Part shown: positions 9,279 through 17,118 of the stretch, one piece after another
Position numbering within the stretch: position 1 is the stretch's first letter
Layout: each line of letters begins with the position of its first letter
Origin: Polyangiaceae bacterium
GTDB lineage: Bacteria > Myxococcota_A > Polyangia > Polyangiales > Polyangiaceae
Length of the DNA: 64,000 nt
Assembly: GCA_947475525.1 (NCBI GenBank)
Contig: CANJMI010000002.1
Coordinates: 124,001-188,000 of the forward strand
Direction: 5' to 3'
The notes under the pieces: generated by a model
What the model was told of the DNA's origin: nothing
The model's input: only the letters and a program-made list of their open reading frames with translations
Database searches by the model: none
Position numbers and translations under genes: made by a program

Positions 9279-9917
9279 TCAGTCGCAGTCGAGCTTCGCG
9301 CGACCGCCGACTTGTTCGAGTAACACCTGCAAGAGGGTCGCGTCCGTGGGTCGCAGTTCTTTCTCGTGCTGCAGGACGAAGCAGAGATGCGCGCTCGCCG
9401 GGTCGGGATCGTTCAGAGTGATGTAACCCTCCGCGAGCCGAATCCGATTCGCAGGATTGCTCGGGTATTCGGCGGCTTGCTGCTCCAGTAGCTCGATGCC
9501 GTCTTCGGAGTTGCCGTGCTGAACGAGGCTGCCCGGCGCGAGCACGTACATCGTGCCGAGCATGCGGCGGGCGGCGCCCTCGTGCCATTTCGGGTCCAGC
9601 TTCAGGCTGAGGCGCCCCCACGACTCCATGTCTCGAACCAGCGCGATCGCCGTAATGCCCGTCAGTTGGGCGAGTCGACCGGCGAGCGAGGCGCGCGCAA
9701 ACGCGTACTCGGCAGAGTCGCCTTTCCAAGCGCAAATAGCGTCGTAGGCGGCCCGCCGATCGTCGAGAGTTGCTCGGCCTTCGTCGATCAGGAGCTCGAG
9801 TGCGTTCGTCAATCCGAGCGCGTCACGCTTGGCCGCTGGCGCTCGAAGCTCGGGTCGCAGATGAATGACATCGAAGCAGGCTACGAGGGCGAGCGCGAGT
9901 CCGACTGCCGACGTCAG
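9279..9917 (-). CDS. TPR-type lipoprotein, TatT-like
   Basis: The frame encodes about 212 residues. It begins KLTSAVGLALALVAC, a lipoprotein signal with lipobox LVAC, followed by TPR-like helices (MESWGRLSLKLDP, GAARRMLGTMYVLAPGS, NPANRIRLAEGYI). The pattern resembles the TatT component family of TRAP-associated lipoproteins (moderate confidence). No ATG, GTG or TTG lies near the signal peptide in this frame. The best start is a CTG at 9917 overlapping the upstream TGA as CTGA. An ATG at 10019 would add 34 Arg-rich residues antisense-like in character. It is coupled to the PhnD-like gene. Confidence 0.65.
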   Translation of the reverse strand: MTSAVGLALALVACFDVIHLRPELRAPAAKRDALGLTNALELLIDEGRATLDDRRAAYDAICAWKGDSAEYAFARASLAGRLAQLTGITAIALVRDMESWGRLSLKLDPKWHEGAARRMLGTMYVLAPGSLVQHGNSEDGIELLEQQAAEYPSNPANRIRLAEGYITLNDPDPASAHLCFVLQHEKELRPTDATLLQVLLEQVGGRAKLDCD

Positions 9918-10765
9918 TTTCCGTAGTTTTGCACGACCGACGCGAAGGCGCTCTCGTCTGCCGCCCTGATCGCTTTGATGCCGACCTTGTCGCAAGCACT
10001 CTTTCCTTCGCCCGAACATAGCGAGCCGAGGCTCGCTTTGAACTTCGCACGTTCCGGGGCTGGCGTACCAGAGAACGCCACGACGGCCATCGGCGGGAGG
10101 TCCGCCGAACTCCACACGGTCTTGACCGCGGCGCCGCCTTCGACCTTCGTCAGCTCTGCGAGTTGAGCGTTGTCTACGAGCGCGCAGACGGCTTCGTCTT
10201 TGACTACGGCCTTCAGTGTTTGCACGGGACGCTTTGTCTTCACGAGTTCGAAGTCCTTCAGCGTGAATGCGCCGCCCGATACGACCCGCTCGATGAACTT
10301 CTTGTTGCCGAAGTGATTGCTCGCAAGCTTCTGTGACTTGCATCCTCCAAGGTCGCTCGCGGTCTTGGAGACGAGGTGGAACTTGCGTCCACCTGCCGAG
10401 TCGACCTCGGCTACCCCGAGAACCTCGAGCCCGTTGTCCTTGCGCATACCGAGAAACGCGCTGAGCGAAAAGATGCCGTACTGCGGGCTCTTTTCCTTGA
10501 TGTACTCCTTCGCGGCCTTGCGCCGGGTCGCATATTTTCCCTCGACGGCGGCCCAGCCGTTCGCGGCCTTTGCGCCCTCCATCAATTTGTCGACGTAGGG
10601 CTGAGCCTGCGCTGCGCTGCCGACGCCGTTGTCCATCACGATGAGGAAATGGACGTTCTGAGCCCCATCTGCCGTTGTCGCTGGGAGCCACGTTGCGAGC
10701 GCGCCGAGGCAGCCGAACGCGAGGGCAGGGATGAGAGAGCGGCGGGTGGTGTTGCGGGTGCTCAT
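9914..10765 (-). CDS. PhnD/phosphate-type periplasmic substrate-binding protein
   Basis: This encodes 283 residues. The ATG at 10765 is preceded by a strong GGAGG at correct spacing. An Arg-rich N-terminus and hydrophobic core form a signal peptide ending near TTADGAQ. The mature protein shows the bilobed binding-protein pattern of the PhnD/TauA-like group: VHFLIVMDNG, YGIFSLSAFLGMRK, LASNHFGNKKFIERV, EAVCALVDNAQL. No ABC permease or ATPase is adjacent, and the only partner is the TPR lipoprotein downstream. A sensing or orphan role is therefore possible, and the ligand is unknown. Confidence 0.65.
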   Translation of the reverse strand: MSTRNTTRRSLIPALAFGCLGALATWLPATTADGAQNVHFLIVMDNGVGSAAQAQPYVDKLMEGAKAANGWAAVEGKYATRRKAAKEYIKEKSPQYGIFSLSAFLGMRKDNGLEVLGVAEVDSAGGRKFHLVSKTASDLGGCKSQKLASNHFGNKKFIERVVSGGAFTLKDFELVKTKRPVQTLKAVVKDEAVCALVDNAQLAELTKVEGGAAVKTVWSSADLPPMAVVAFSGTPAPERAKFKASLGSLCSGEGKSACDKVGIKAIRAADESAFASVVQNYGN

Positions 10766-10982
10766 GACGAAAACCTCCATGGACGGGATAGACGAGGTCG
10801 CCCCGCGCCGCTTCCATGCCAGCACGAAAGAGGCGGGTCAACTTGGAGGAATGCGTCGCCCAAGGGAACACGTGCGGGCGCCTAGCGTCGCCGCTCTGAA
10901 ACGATGTTGCTGCTCGTGACGATTGCTTGGTGTGAGCAACCACGAAGTGCCGCCGGGCGCGTCGAGGCGCTATCCTCGTCGC

Positions 10983-11612
10983 ATGGGGAAGACGACGGCA
11001 CGCGCGACGTACGACAAGTTGCTCGCGCTCGACGAGAAGACCCGCGCCGAAGGGATTGAGGGGCGGGTGGTGATCCTGCCGTCGCCTAGCGCGGAACACT
11101 AAACGGTCGCGCGCGTGTTGGGTGGCGTCATCGGCGCCCGCTTCCAGGATGACCACGGACGAGGAGGGCCTGGCGCCTGGTGGAGCCTTTGCGACTTCGA
11201 CGTTCAGTTCGAAAAGCACACGATCCTTCGTCCTGACCTCGTCGGTTGGCGCCGGGAGAGCTCGCCTAAGCCGCCCGTTCGACCGGCCGCGCTCCGTCCC
11301 GACTGGGTTTGTGAAGTCGTGTCGCGGTCGAACACGAGCCACGATCGCGTGACGAAGCGGCCACTGTATACAACACACAACATTACATATTACTGGGTGG
11401 TCGACCCGATCGCGCGGACGCTGGATGCGTTGGCGCTGTGTGATGGCGCATGGGTTGAGATCGGCGTCTACGACGAGGACGATGTGGCGCGCATCGCTCC
11501 GTTCGACGCGGTGGAGCTCGAGGTGGGGCGGAGTTTCGCGCCCCCGGAGGAGGGGGTGGGGGAGGGCGCAGCCGAGGAGCAGCATCGGGGCGAAGCATTT
11601 GTCTCCCCGTAG
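10983..11612 (+). pseudogene. Uma2 family nuclease-like gene, interrupted by a nonsense codon
   Basis: Reading from the ATG at 10983 in register with the two downstream copies gives a Uma2 protein with an in-frame TAA at 11100-11102, where the intact copies have a Gln codon (HQ); CAA to TAA is the simplest change. The frame is otherwise open to 11612 and keeps RPDLVGWRRE, WVCEVVSRSNT, DRVTKRPLY and YYWVVDP. A short AT-rich stretch near 11366-11396 replaces the conserved AEHGVPH segment. Either the gene is dead or a shortened product starts after the stop. The same leader as the intact copies precedes it. Confidence 0.85.
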
Positions 11613-11776
11613 TTCAAGCGGTCGATTCCGTGCCCGGTTTGGCGAAGAACCGAGTTGCCCCGCTGCGTAAAACGGTGCGTGTCGATTCCCTGAAACGCTC
11701 ATCCCTCTCGTGACGAGTACTTGGTGTGACCAACCATGAAGTGACGCCGGGCGCGTCGAGGCGCTATCCTCGAGGC

Positions 11777-12397
11777 ATGGGGACGAAGACGCCGGAGACG
11801 TCCTACGAGGAGTGGCTCGCGCTCGACGAGAAGGTGCGGGCCGAGTTCATCGATGGACGGATCGTCACGCTGCCGTCGCCGAGCGGGCCGCATCAGTACG
11901 TCCTGAACGCGCTCGCGGAGTTCATCGTCATTCCGTTCTGCACGCGCCACGGTCGCGGTGGTCCAGGAGACTGGTGGATTCTGCCTGACTACGACGTTTG
12001 TTTCGGGGAGCAGATCCTCCGTCCCGACCTCGTCGGCTGGCGACGCGAACGCTCGCCGCGCTTGCCGGAACGCCCGGTGGAACTCACGCCCGACTGGGTG
12101 TGCGAGGTCGTGTCGCCGTCGAACACGAACCACGATCGCGTGACGAAGCGACGCCTCTACGCCGAGCACGGCGTACCGCATTACTGGGTGGTCGACCCGA
12201 TCGCGCGCACGCTGGATGCGCTCGCGCTGCGTGACGGCGCGTGGGTTGAGATCGGCGTCTACGACGAGGACGATGTGGCGCGGATCGCTCCGTTCGACGC
12301 GGTGGAGCTCGAGATTGGGCGGCTTTTCGTGCCGCGGGAAGAGATGGAGGAGGAGGGTTGTGTTGCAACGCCTCACGGCGAGACCGTCTCGCCTTAG
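11777..12397 (+). CDS. Uma2 family protein (PD-(D/E)XK nuclease-like)
   Basis: This encodes 206 residues, starting at the ATG shared in position by all three copies. The Uma2 (DUF820) core is intact: YEEWLALDEKVRAEFIDGRIV, LPSPSGPHQY, ILRPDLVGWRRE, WVCEVVSPSN, DRVTKRRLYAEHGVPHYWVVDP. The Asp, Glu and Lys of the PD-(D/E)XK active site can be placed in the RPD, CEVV and VTKR segments. Uma2 proteins are widespread, often multicopy and poorly characterised, and nuclease activity is inferred from fold. A TATCCT -10 box sits six bases before the ATG with no Shine-Dalgarno, suggesting a leaderless mRNA. Confidence 0.88.
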   Translation: MGTKTPETSYEEWLALDEKVRAEFIDGRIVTLPSPSGPHQYVLNALAEFIVIPFCTRHGRGGPGDWWILPDYDVCFGEQILRPDLVGWRRERSPRLPERPVELTPDWVCEVVSPSNTNHDRVTKRRLYAEHGVPHYWVVDPIARTLDALALRDGAWVEIGVYDEDDVARIAPFDAVELEIGRLFVPREEMEEEGCVATPHGETVSP

Positions 12398-12556
12398 TCC
12401 GAGCGGTCCATCCAGAGCGCGCGTTGTCGAACGCTCAGTCGCTTGAAGCGGCGCGCTGTCGAATCCGTGAAACGATCGCCCTGCTAGTGACGATCAGGTG
12501 GTGTGAGCCACCACGAAGGGACGACACGAGGCGCGTCGAGGCGCTATTCTCGACGC

Positions 12557-13213
12557 ATGGGGATGAAGCCGCCGCGGACGCCGTACGAAGAATGGCTCGC
12601 GCTTGACGAGAAGGTGCGAGCCGAGTTCATCGATGGGAAAATCATGATGCTCGATGCGCCGAGCGACGCCGTGACGCTGCCGTCGCCGAGCGGTGCGCAT
12701 CAGTATGTGCAAGGCGAGTTGGGTGACTTCGTACGTGCGCTTGTTCGGAGCCACGCGGACTGTCCGAACGGCTGGTGGATTCTCTGCGATTACGATGTTC
12801 GCTTGGGTGAGAACGTCCTGCGTCCCGACCTTGTCGGCTGGCGCCGGGAGCGCTCGCCGCGTTTGCCGGAGCGACCCGTAGAGCTGAGGCCTGACTGGGC
12901 TTGTGAAATCGTGTCGCCGTCAAATACGAACCACGATCGCGTGACGAAGCGACGGCTCTACGCCGAGCACGGCGTGCCGCACTACTGGGTGATCGACCCG
13001 ATGGAGCGGACGCTGGAGGCGCTCGCGCTTTGTGACGGTACATGGATTGAGATCGGCGTCTACGATGAGGAGGATGTGGCGCGGATCGCTCCGTTCGACG
13101 CGGTGGAGCTCGAGATCGGGCGGCTGTTCGTGCCGCGGGAGGAGGAGGACGGGGAAAGCGGCGAGGATGACGGCCAACGCGAGGAGGTCGCCTCAAGCGC
13201 CGTCGTCGGTTGA
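12557..13213 (+). CDS. Uma2 family protein (PD-(D/E)XK nuclease-like)
   Basis: This third tandem copy encodes 218 residues. It keeps the core motifs (VLRPDLVGWRRE, WACEIVSPSNTNHDR, VTKRRLYAEHGVPHYWVIDP) and carries a small insertion MMLDAPSDA before the TLPSPSG motif. The C-terminus is an acidic tail (EEEDGESGEDDG). A TATTCT -10-like box lies six bases upstream of the ATG in the conserved leader. It is intact and may differ in partner through the insertion and tail. Confidence 0.88.
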   Translation: MGMKPPRTPYEEWLALDEKVRAEFIDGKIMMLDAPSDAVTLPSPSGAHQYVQGELGDFVRALVRSHADCPNGWWILCDYDVRLGENVLRPDLVGWRRERSPRLPERPVELRPDWACEIVSPSNTNHDRVTKRRLYAEHGVPHYWVIDPMERTLEALALCDGTWIEIGVYDEEDVARIAPFDAVELEIGRLFVPREEEDGESGEDDGQREEVASSAVVG

Positions 13214-13244
13214 GGGGTGCGCGGGGACGCGCCTTATTGCGGCG

Positions 13245-14228
13245 TCAGTTGCTCATCGACTCCGACAAGCCACCGAGCTGCATCACAGCTTTCACCCACG
13301 CCGAGAATTGCCGCAACTCGACAGGATCGTCGTGTACGACTTGTTCCTGACCTCCGGGATTGCGAACACGCCCCGAAGTTGGAGGTTTGCCGTCCCGAAA
13401 GGTGCCCTCGATCACGAGTCCTGTGGGGCCGGTCGTCCGCGCGAGCCCGTGCAGTTTGCGGTGCGCGAAGGTGACCTCGGTGAGGATGTTCTCTGGCGAG
13501 CGGATTGTCATCACGCCCTCGACCGTTCCGCGATTGAACGTGAAGTCGGAGACGTTGCCATCGGCCGCGACCATGTGTGCCGGACCGTCCATCTTGCCGT
13601 CGAGGAACGCGACCTCCATCGTGCTGCCATCGGGGCGTGTCACCTTTGCAGGGCCGATGAGGTTTCCGTTCGCGTAGCGTCCCTCGAGGACCGTGCCGTC
13701 CGGCTGCGTCTGGCGCCCCTTTCCCGAGAGCTCGCCGTCGACGAAAGTGCCCTCGAACGTCATGTCGCCCTTCTTGATGAGGCCGCGTCCGTTCAGCTTC
13801 TGATGAACAAAGGTGCCCTCAATGAGGGTCGAACCGTCGTCGAGGCGGCCGCGTCCTTCGAGGAGGCCATCGACGAAGGTGCCGCTCGCCGTCAACGTGC
13901 CCTGCGTCGCCTTGCCTTCCCCCGAGAGCTTGCCGTCGCGAAACTGCCCTTCGAAAGTGCGCAAGAGTCGGCCGTCCCGTAGCACTTTGAGGCGCCCGTC
14001 CCCCGAGATGCGGCCATGTTCACAAGCCCCCGACCACCAGACGGTGAGATCGCTCTCGTCGGAGCCTGCAAACGCAACGCATTCATCGCTGACCGCAATC
14101 CAGCCGTGGGTGAGGGGGGCGTGCACTGACTTCGGCCCTCGATCATTGATGCGCGCCGAAGCGCAGCCGCCCAACGCAAGAGCTGCCAGCAGGGTGAGCA
14201 CCGACGAAGGCGTCGACTTATGCATCAT
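13245..14228 (-). CDS. MORN-like repeat lipoprotein
   Basis: This encodes 327 residues (ATG at 14228 or the adjacent ATG at 14225). A lipoprotein signal peptide ends at the lipobox LGGC. From about residue 70 to 290 there is a run of roughly ten degenerate repeats of about 22 residues with the pattern EGTFVDGxLxGxG, typical of MORN-type repeats that form an extended beta structure. It is the last gene of a three-gene minus-strand operon of exported proteins, 12 bases after the preceding gene. Its function is unknown, probably structural or adhesive on a membrane surface. Confidence 0.8.
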   Translation of the reverse strand: MMHKSTPSSVLTLLAALALGGCASARINDRGPKSVHAPLTHGWIAVSDECVAFAGSDESDLTVWWSGACEHGRISGDGRLKVLRDGRLLRTFEGQFRDGKLSGEGKATQGTLTASGTFVDGLLEGRGRLDDGSTLIEGTFVHQKLNGRGLIKKGDMTFEGTFVDGELSGKGRQTQPDGTVLEGRYANGNLIGPAKVTRPDGSTMEVAFLDGKMDGPAHMVAADGNVSDFTFNRGTVEGVMTIRSPENILTEVTFAHRKLHGLARTTGPTGLVIEGTFRDGKPPTSGRVRNPGGQEQVVHDDPVELRQFSAWVKAVMQLGGLSESMSN

Positions 14229-14240
14229 TACAGCCTTGCG

Positions 14241-15257
14241 TCAGTGGGAGCACTGATTGCGGCACATGTTGAGTAGCGCTTCAGGGTCGAGCCTTTCGTT
14301 GCCGCGTCCCTCTGCGATGGCCTTGTTCAGGAAGCCTTTCGCGCACCGATCTATGCACTCGTTTTTTTGTAGCTCCTTCTCGCTTTTTTCTGCCGTTCTT
14401 GCCGCCGCGGCCGCGCGCTCCTGCTCTTCCTCGGCTCGCTGACGTCGGAGTGCGCCCCCGCGGGAACGGAGTTGCTCAAGCGACACTGTCGCGGTTTGAC
14501 CGTCGAGAATGATCTCCGCCTCGCCCTTAATAAGTGCGTGCTCCGACCACTCCATCTTCTGACCGCTGAGGCGTAGCAAGCCCCGATCGTCGGTCACGAC
14601 GTTGACCTCCCGGTTGTCCCCATCCTTCACCACCACGGCTTGGTTCGGCATCGGCTTGCCGCCGGGACCGCCTTGGTCGTCTGTGCACGGGGCCCATGGA
14701 GTTTGCGAGGCTTCGTCCTCTTCCTCGTGCGTCGTGTCGATACCTCGAAGACCCGTGCCGAGCGCAAGCCCCCCCAAGGCCGCCCCGAGAGTTAGGAATA
14801 CGGCGCCCACGTTGGTGTCCGTCTTGCGTTGGTCGCTCTCTTCCGATGGGGTGCATGGGACTTTGGTTTTCCCGTCGTCGAGCGTATTGCTGCACGTGCT
14901 CGCGAGAGAGCCAACTCCGATCAGGGCACTCGCGAGCCCCGCAAGGCTGGCGTAAATGACCACATCGGTGTTCGCTTCGCGTTCGATCGTGGAGCGCCGC
15001 ACCGTCGGCCCCAAGAGGCGACACTCTCGCCTCGGTCGAAGGCGCACAAGCAGATCGTCGCCGTCGACTTCCGTGTCCTTCACTACGGGCACGAGGCGCA
15101 CTTCGAGCTTATGATTGACGCCTGGTTTCGGGACCAGTGAGCCAGGCTGGAAGGTCTCTTTCGGCGTGCAGCCGGAGTTGCTCGCGAGAGTTATCGCGAG
15201 CGCGAGTAGTCCGCCAACAGAGCGCTCGTAACGAGAGGTGATTTTGCTGTAAAACAT
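14241..15257 (-). CDS. Putative lipoprotein with TM segments and C-terminal twin CX3C motif
   Basis: This encodes 338 residues. The ATG at 15257 is preceded by gagg, and the longer frame upstream overlaps the next gene. A signal peptide ends at SNSGC, a weak lipobox. The middle has two glycine/alanine-rich hydrophobic segments (VIYASLAGLASALIGVGSLAS and VGAVFLTLGAALGGLALGTGL). A helical Arg/Glu/Ala region follows (RQRAEEEQERAAAA), then a C-terminal CIDRC - 24 residues - CRNQC. Twin CX3C spacing is that of CHCH-type disulfide hairpins. No family was recognised. Confidence 0.6.
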   Translation of the reverse strand: MFYSKITSRYERSVGGLLALAITLASNSGCTPKETFQPGSLVPKPGVNHKLEVRLVPVVKDTEVDGDDLLVRLRPRRECRLLGPTVRRSTIEREANTDVVIYASLAGLASALIGVGSLASTCSNTLDDGKTKVPCTPSEESDQRKTDTNVGAVFLTLGAALGGLALGTGLRGIDTTHEEEDEASQTPWAPCTDDQGGPGGKPMPNQAVVVKDGDNREVNVVTDDRGLLRLSGQKMEWSEHALIKGEAEIILDGQTATVSLEQLRSRGGALRRQRAEEEQERAAAAARTAEKSEKELQKNECIDRCAKGFLNKAIAEGRGNERLDPEALLNMCRNQCSH

Positions 15258-15322
15258 GCGGTCCTCTTTGGACCCCGGCCGCGGCGTGCAAGCGCGCCAC
15301 GGCCGAGAAGCCCGTTCTTCTT

Positions 15323-15655
15323 TCAGTTGCAACCGCACATTTTGTAGTTGCCCTTCTTGCCGTTCGCTTCGCAACACGTCGTGTTGGCGTCGTAGCAGTT
15401 CTCCTCGCAATTCTGCTTGTCGTCGCCGCTCTTGTTCGAGCAGCGGCGTTTGCAATCGTCGCAGCGGAACCAACACTGACTCGCATCCAACTCCACTGCG
15501 TTGTCCTGCGGTTTTGTCGCGTGTGCGGCCGTGCTCGCCTTAGCCGGCTCCGGGCGCGGCGGCTCGGCGGCGCCCATCAGCGCGGCGCTGAGGCCGAGGA
15601 ACGATAAGCCGATCGCGAGCTTCGTAATCTTCTTTATGTTCGATGTCTTCTTCAT
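15323..15655 (-). CDS. Small secreted cysteine-rich protein
   Basis: This encodes 110 residues. The ATG at 15655 is preceded by aaggaga at good spacing. A basic N-terminus and hydrophobic core (LAIGLSFLGLSAALMGAA) form a signal peptide. The mature C-terminal half has eleven cysteines with three CX3C units: CWFRC, CKRRC and CEENC, then CC and CGC. Such a density implies disulfides or metal binding outside the cytoplasm. It is the first gene of the three-gene operon and lies divergent from the XRE regulator. No family was recognised. Confidence 0.7.
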   Translation of the reverse strand: MKKTSNIKKITKLAIGLSFLGLSAALMGAAEPPRPEPAKASTAAHATKPQDNAVELDASQCWFRCDDCKRRCSNKSGDDKQNCEENCYDANTTCCEANGKKGNYKMCGCN

Positions 15656-15740
15656 GTTCGATGATCTCCTTCGACGTTGTGTCAGAGCCGCCCCCCCAGT
15701 CGCCAACCTCTCGGCGCGTCGAGCTAGACGACGATCAACG

Positions 15741-15769
15741 ACTACCACGTATCGTGGTAGTAATGTCAA
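15741..15769. promoter_or_regulatory. Perfect 9-bp inverted repeat plus TTGACA: probable operator/promoter of the Cys-rich operon
   Basis: The arms ACTACCACG (15741-15749) and CGTGGTAGT (15753-15761) flank TAT, giving a perfect 21-base palindrome in the divergent region. On the minus strand a consensus TTGACA (15764-15769) abuts it, so the palindrome lies where the spacer and -10 of the secreted-protein operon promoter would be. A dimeric regulator bound here would block that promoter. The adjacent XRE gene is the obvious candidate. Confidence 0.7.
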
Positions 15770-15824
15770 CGCTATCGCCAAGCGTGGGTGTCGTCTGCGC
15801 GGTGGCGCGGACAAAAGTCACCAC

Positions 15825-16187
15825 ATGGTCGTCACCGCCACGGCGCTCCTGCAGCAGGTCGGCAACCGCCTGCGCACGCTCCGCGAGGTGGCCGGTTTGA
15901 CGCAGGAAGAGGTCGCGGAGCGGGCTGGATTTACGGGCAAATACGTCTCCGAGATCGAACGTGGCCTCCGCGACGTGCCGCTCTCGACGTTGGAGCGCGT
16001 GGCGACTCGAGCCCTCGAGACTCGCGTCGACGCGCTCTTCGGCGCCCGCCCCAGCGAGACGTGGGAACATCCCGCACTACCACGCTCCGTGGAAGTCGTT
16101 GCGCAGCGCATCGCGGTCCTCCCGAGCCTCAAGCGCCGGGCCGTCCTGCGTATCGTACGGGAGCTCCTTTCCGTCGTCGGCGGCTGA
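15825..16187 (+). CDS. XRE-family helix-turn-helix transcriptional regulator
   Basis: This encodes 120 residues. The Cro/C1-type HTH spans about residues 11-68, with VGNRLRTLREVAGLTQEEVAERAG and the recognition helix GKYVSEIERG. The remaining 50 residues are helical and may mediate dimerisation. There is no Shine-Dalgarno before the ATG. It is divergent from the Cys-rich secreted-protein operon, with a perfect palindrome between them, so local repression and possibly autoregulation are likely. Confidence 0.85.
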   Translation: MVVTATALLQQVGNRLRTLREVAGLTQEEVAERAGFTGKYVSEIERGLRDVPLSTLERVATRALETRVDALFGARPSETWEHPALPRSVEVVAQRIAVLPSLKRRAVLRIVRELLSVVGG

Positions 16188-16251
16188 GCCTGCGACGCGC
16201 CCCGCGCCGCATTCCGTTGCGTCCGCGCGAGGTAGGACTAACCTCCGAGCG

Positions 16252-17118
16252 ATGCGCATCAAGGCCATGCTTGGTGGCGGTCGCCCCGTCGTGTCCTTCG
16301 AGTTTTTCCCGCCGAAGACGGATGACGGCGTCGAGAAGCTCTATCACTCCGTTGAGGCATTGAAGCCGTGTCGCCCGTCGTTCGTCTCGGTGACCTACGG
16401 CGCCGGCGGCTCGACCCGCGAGCGCACTCTCGAGCTCGTTGGGCGCATCAAGCACGACCTTGGGATCGAGACGATGGCGCACCTCACTTGCGTTGGTGCT
16501 TCCAAAAAGGACTTAGCGGTCACCCTCGAAAAGCTCGCGCATGCGGGCATCGAGAACGTCCTGGCCCTGCGTGGTGATCCGCCCAAAGGCGAGACGACTT
16601 TCGCCGCGCACGATGGCGGCTTTGCACACGCGAGTGAGCTTGTCGCGTTCATACGGGAAGAAGGCTACCCGTTCTGCGTCGGCGCCGCGTGTTACCCCGA
16701 GGGGCACCCGGAGGCGGCCGGTCTCGATGCCGATTTGGCGAACCTCGTGACCAAGGTTGCGGCGGGCGCTGAATTTCTCATCTCTCAGCTTTTCTTCGAT
16801 AACCAGGACTTTCTGCCGTTCGTGCGGCGGGCGCGCTCCGCTGGCATCGAGGTGCCGATCATCCCGGGCCTCATGCCGGTCACCAACGTCTCGCAGACGC
16901 ATCGCTTCACGAAAATGTGCGGCGCCCGGATCCCGCAGGAACTTTCACGTCGCCTCGCGATCGTCGAGCGCGATCCGGCGGCGGTCGTCGCCGCGGGTGT
17001 GTATTGGACCACGGTCCAAGCGCAGCAGTTGCTGGACCATGGCGTACCGGGCCTTCACTTCTACACGCTCAATCAGTCCTCCGCGACGCTCGCTGTCCAC
17101 GCCGCTCTCGGGCTCTGA
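16252..17118 (+). CDS. metF: Methylenetetrahydrofolate reductase
   Basis: This encodes 288 residues and reduces 5,10-methylene-THF to 5-methyl-THF with FAD, supplying methyl groups for methionine synthesis. It carries the family signatures SFEFFPPKT (catalytic Glu), VSVTYGAGGSTR, HLTCVG, NVLALRGDPP, FCVGAACYPEGHPEA, FLISQLFFD and PGLMPV. Its length is typical. TTGCGT-16-TAACCT ends seven bases before the ATG with no Shine-Dalgarno, compatible with leaderless transcription. Confidence 0.95.
   Translation: MRIKAMLGGGRPVVSFEFFPPKTDDGVEKLYHSVEALKPCRPSFVSVTYGAGGSTRERTLELVGRIKHDLGIETMAHLTCVGASKKDLAVTLEKLAHAGIENVLALRGDPPKGETTFAAHDGGFAHASELVAFIREEGYPFCVGAACYPEGHPEAAGLDADLANLVTKVAAGAEFLISQLFFDNQDFLPFVRRARSAGIEVPIIPGLMPVTNVSQTHRFTKMCGARIPQELSRRLAIVERDPAAVVAAGVYWTTVQAQQLLDHGVPGLHFYTLNQSSATLAVHAALGL

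Follow-up and report, generated by a model that had tools for sequence, protein, structure and literature searches.

A window of 64,000 nucleotides from the genome of a Polyangiaceae bacterium was analysed, in which the gene of a small XRE-family regulator and three genes coding for exported-looking proteins are divergently oriented (Table 1). Together with Uma2 genes, they make up a block bordered in the window by a gene at 9914-10825 and by metF at 16252-17118. These two flanking genes are direct neighbours in a genome of the same genus (G004), which identifies the block as an accessory insert at the metF site. The spot upstream of metF is variable (window 10826-16251; L082:2386-4623; L084:11607-11926), being empty in G004 and occupied in G001 by other accessory genes, including one for another Cys-rich exported-looking protein. 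The Uma2 family (PF05685) is represented in the window by three tandem genes (11011-13213), the first of which has an in-frame stop; this genome gave 10 Uma2 matches, and one relative of the same genus 13.

Table 1. Features of the divergent locus and of the accessory block that contains it (positions are those of the window)
Feature	Position	Strand	Description
Accessory block (Uma2 genes, operon, XRE gene)	10826-16251		Flanking genes adjoin directly in G004 (L084)
Predicted MORN-repeat lipoprotein, 327 aa	13245-14228	-	PF02493 MORN, E = 2.9e-13
Predicted lipoprotein, 338 aa	14241-15257	-	C-terminal twin CX3C; no family
Small exported-looking protein, 110 aa	15323-15655	-	10 Cys, three CX3C pairs; N-terminal signal-like segment
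O1	15741-15761		Perfect palindrome ACTACCACG-TAT-CGTGGTAGT (9+3+9) between the divergent genes; proposed operator
TTGACA	15763-15768	-	Possible -35 towards the Cys-rich gene, 1 base from O1; no matching -10 recognised
XRE-family regulator, 120 aa	15825-16187	+	PF13560 HTH_31, PF01381 HTH_3
O2	16076-16096		ACTACCACG-CTC-CGTGGAAGT, 1 mismatch, within the XRE gene; proposed auxiliary/roadblock operator

The signal peptides and lipoboxes of the three operon proteins were read by eye. The initial annotation had attributed eleven cysteines to the smallest of them, where ten were counted, and its description of the 338-aa protein as a lipoprotein with a twin CX3C motif was confirmed. It had also considered the operon devoid of recognised families, which held for the 338-aa protein and for the Cys-rich protein, whose family search returned no match, and did not hold for the third protein, which presented MORN repeats. 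A single orthologue of the Cys-rich protein was found, in G003 (same genus), sharing 49% identity and conserving 10/10 cysteines, and this family was confined to one genus within the genomes sampled. Neither an XRE gene nor the palindrome nor a lipoprotein gene was present beside the G003 gene; its neighbours, identified by eye, were an IS3-type transposase-like gene and, on the other strand, a gene with haem-peroxidase-like motifs. A short similarity between the upstream regions of the two Cys-rich genes, starting just downstream of O1 in the window, was weak, with 5 of 1000 shuffles scoring as high, and was set aside. Similarly, no convincing homologue of the 338-aa lipoprotein was found among 58 related genomes. 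The secreted Cys-rich genes represent a lineage-restricted accessory cluster.

The regulator carries a Cro/C1-type helix-turn-helix domain above the curated cut-offs of both families that define it as an XRE protein, with 49 bits for PF13560 HTH_31 (E = 7.7e-13; cut-off 27) and 37.2 bits for PF01381 HTH_3 (cut-off 23). Its start codon is uncertain, as no clear ribosome-binding site precedes the ATG at 15825. The search for close orthologues covered 58 relatives, 183 genomes from the order and 377 from the phylum, together with plasmids, phages and viral contigs, and found none; the matches within the genus were generic XRE proteins only. Among the 183 order genomes, the nearest homologues found shared 43% (G056) and 41% (G059) identity, and the phylum sample of 377 genomes yielded none at this 41-43% level. 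The G056 homologue kept the C-terminal segment (LPRNV) and had neither the O1 nor the O2 palindrome.

The perfect inverted repeat with 9-bp arms that had been annotated in front of this regulator, here named O1, was recovered exactly. It is placed in the 169-bp gap separating the start of the Cys-rich gene (15655, minus strand) from that of the XRE gene (15825, plus strand), with 86 bp between it and the start codon of the Cys-rich gene, the first of the operon. In the whole window, 4 inverted repeats of this kind were observed against 5.9 expected in Markov sequence; this expectation corresponds to approximately 0.016 repeats in the 169-bp gap. Taken alone, and judged by its length, O1 is not beyond chance, and a literature search with the palindrome sequence as a string retrieved unrelated papers only. 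The minus-strand TTGACA reported beside the palindrome was present as well, read from 15768 to 15763. The initial annotation placed O1 in the expected spacer/-10 of the operon promoter; the scan of positions 15560-15960 revealed no sigma-70-like promoter combining a -35 with a -10, and the hexamers found 16, 17 and 18 nt from TTGACA were TGGTAG, GGTAGT and GTAGTC, respectively.

A search of the window for further copies of the palindrome revealed a second site, O2, absent from the initial annotation and located approximately 250 bp into the XRE coding sequence, where it encodes the residues ALPRSVEV. Across the 5.15-Mb genome, no sites besides O1 (no mismatch) and O2 (one mismatch) came within 3 mismatches, while a reversed control pattern produced 7 genome matches at the same threshold. 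Moreover, no match with up to 3 mismatches occurred in 100 shuffles of the window, against the two observed. This second, near-identical copy raises the palindrome observation clearly above chance. Its single mismatch is the minimum that the residues ALPRSVEV permit, and it is spelled in uncommon codons, with P = 3.9e-5 given the protein and the codon usage of nine window genes, which stood in for the genome. In addition, none of 3000 recoded versions of the XRE gene (0/3000) matched the palindrome with at most one mismatch. Because the mismatch count is the lowest possible and such a match is so rarely produced by synonymous choice, both in the codon test and in the recodings, O2 looks held at the DNA level and not simply dictated by the encoded residues. 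From centre to centre, O1 and O2 are 335 bp apart, or 31.9 helical turns at 10.5 bp; this near-integer phase is one isolated value that chance could produce.

The presence of putative palindromic operators at its own gene, unique in the genome, is the arrangement of an autoregulator, and it is probable, on the whole, that the XRE protein controls its own gene through O1 in the divergent intergenic region and through O2 as an intragenic auxiliary or roadblock operator. In such a mechanism, the XRE protein, probably as a dimer, would bind ACTACCACGN3CGTGGTAGT and thereby control its own gene. When bound at O1, it would keep RNA polymerase off the promoter of the XRE gene and possibly off the Cys-rich operon too, given that O1 abuts the candidate minus-strand -35. 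At O2, it would act as a roadblock to elongation; alternatively, O2 could serve as an auxiliary operator forming a 335-bp loop with O1. That the XRE protein is the binder, that repression is the effect, and the choice between roadblock and loop are what we infer from the arrangement of the sites. The initial annotation had already proposed the adjoining regulator as the natural binder of the palindrome, and this proposal gains indirect support from the position of the only two sites of the genome, one preceding the XRE gene and the other within it.

Control of the Cys-rich operon by O1 is suggested by its position and can be held only tentatively, being unsupported by comparison. The initial annotation had gone further, treating O1 chiefly as the operator of this operon and the regulator and operon as a dedicated regulated envelope module, which seems unlikely. 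The divergent arrangement, the short distance from O1 to the operon start codon and the adjacent TTGACA are in agreement with it. However, no -10 was recognised, the Cys-rich family belongs to one genus in the sample, and O2, inside the regulator gene, is left unexplained. Furthermore, the regulator, the palindrome and the Cys-rich gene are not conserved together: the sole Cys-rich orthologue found, that of G003, has no palindrome upstream and neither the regulator nor the lipoprotein genes adjoining it. It is more improbable still that O1 and O2 are recognised by another cellular DNA-binding protein; the genome does encode more XRE-family proteins, with two further matches on the same contig, for example, but within the genome both sites are confined to the XRE gene, as is usual for a local autoregulator. 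Finally, a chance origin, with O1 as one of the random inverted repeats expected and O2 as a coincidental match, can practically be dismissed, for about six palindromes of the length of O1 are indeed expected per window, but neither the two matches, unequalled in the shuffles, nor the codon test result fits with it.

In the context of other genomes, a scan of 84,980 species for the exact palindrome revealed five places, three of which, in Streptomyces and two Frankia, were located just after the stop codon of an XRE-TPR gene. The palindrome was likewise found just after an XRE-TPR gene in a viral contig (sites 3′ of these genes at L064:2608-2628, L065:5709-5729, L066:6983-7003 and L070:5011-5031), and it was also present in a second viral contig (L069), where the sequence is too short to tell. 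All four genomes or records searched (Streptomyces, two Frankia and the first viral contig) had one site each when up to 2 mismatches were allowed. Of six plasmid-borne relatives of the actinobacterial regulator, two presented degenerate palindromes at the stop codon, with 3 and 4 mismatches (L109:2436, L111:2403), and the remaining ones had no clear palindrome. The exact palindrome of Brevibacillus and Anoxybacillus was set aside, as it is part of a longer hairpin between apparent citrate synthase and isocitrate dehydrogenase genes, with 13-bp arms (L067:7139-7159, L068:4001-4021). The near-exact palindromes of two other Myxococcota (L085, L086) were attributed to chance, with no relative of the window XRE protein adjoining them.

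The actinobacterial regulators thus share with the window the same 18 specified bases, a single copy per genome or record and an XRE gene alongside. They differ in that their site is just after the gene, in their long TPR-like C-terminal part and in their recognition helix (LSVSTIRKIEQG versus FTGKYVSEIERG in the window protein). Since the recognition helices differ, the common palindrome does not demonstrate common descent; the coincidence gives indirect support to the notion that palindromes of this kind go with XRE genes, and the copies following the actinobacterial genes may represent a conserved 3′ operator in that family. A more elaborate version of the autoregulatory model, in which the XRE protein would set its own level through two matched operators by looping and roadblock combined, and in which the same operator sequence would have been arrived at independently by the actinobacterial XRE-TPR regulators, is rather doubtful.

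With regard to known systems, the lac and gal repressors combine a main operator with an imperfect auxiliary operator that lies inside or near the gene, at a distance of a few hundred bp, which allows looping. The locus described here similarly presents a main site and a second, imperfect one in coding sequence, a few hundred bp apart; however, the protein families are unrelated, the second site is in the gene of the regulator itself, and looping is only proposed. Restriction-modification controllers were considered as well, C.BclI and C.AhdI being the nearest solved structures to the XRE protein by helix-turn-helix sequence and nothing more. C proteins are encoded next to endonuclease and methyltransferase genes, and identity as a C protein was rejected for want of a methyltransferase gene among the neighbours searched: the three operon genes and two Uma2 genes matched no methyltransferase family, the Uma2 copies lie 2.6 kb from the XRE gene, beyond the operon, and metF flanks the XRE gene on the opposite side. 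Among the closest parallels is C.Kpn2I, an XRE-type regulator for which it was experimentally demonstrated that binding within its own gene blocks elongating RNA polymerase (PMC6237814). Both cases involve an XRE-type regulator, divergent genes and a site in the coding region of the regulator gene, bound in C.Kpn2I and proposed here. In contrast, C.Kpn2I is a restriction-modification controller, whereas no methyltransferase gene was recognised adjoining the XRE gene; the present locus has two separated sites, one intergenic and one intragenic, and the latter is approximately 250 bp into the gene instead of near its beginning. O2 offers a concrete case of a putative operator kept within a coding sequence at the best match that the amino acids allow, and operators of this type escape motif searches restricted to upstream regions. 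This fits the suggestion, raised by the C.Kpn2I work, that autoregulatory sites within genes are more frequent than annotation indicates (PMC6237814).
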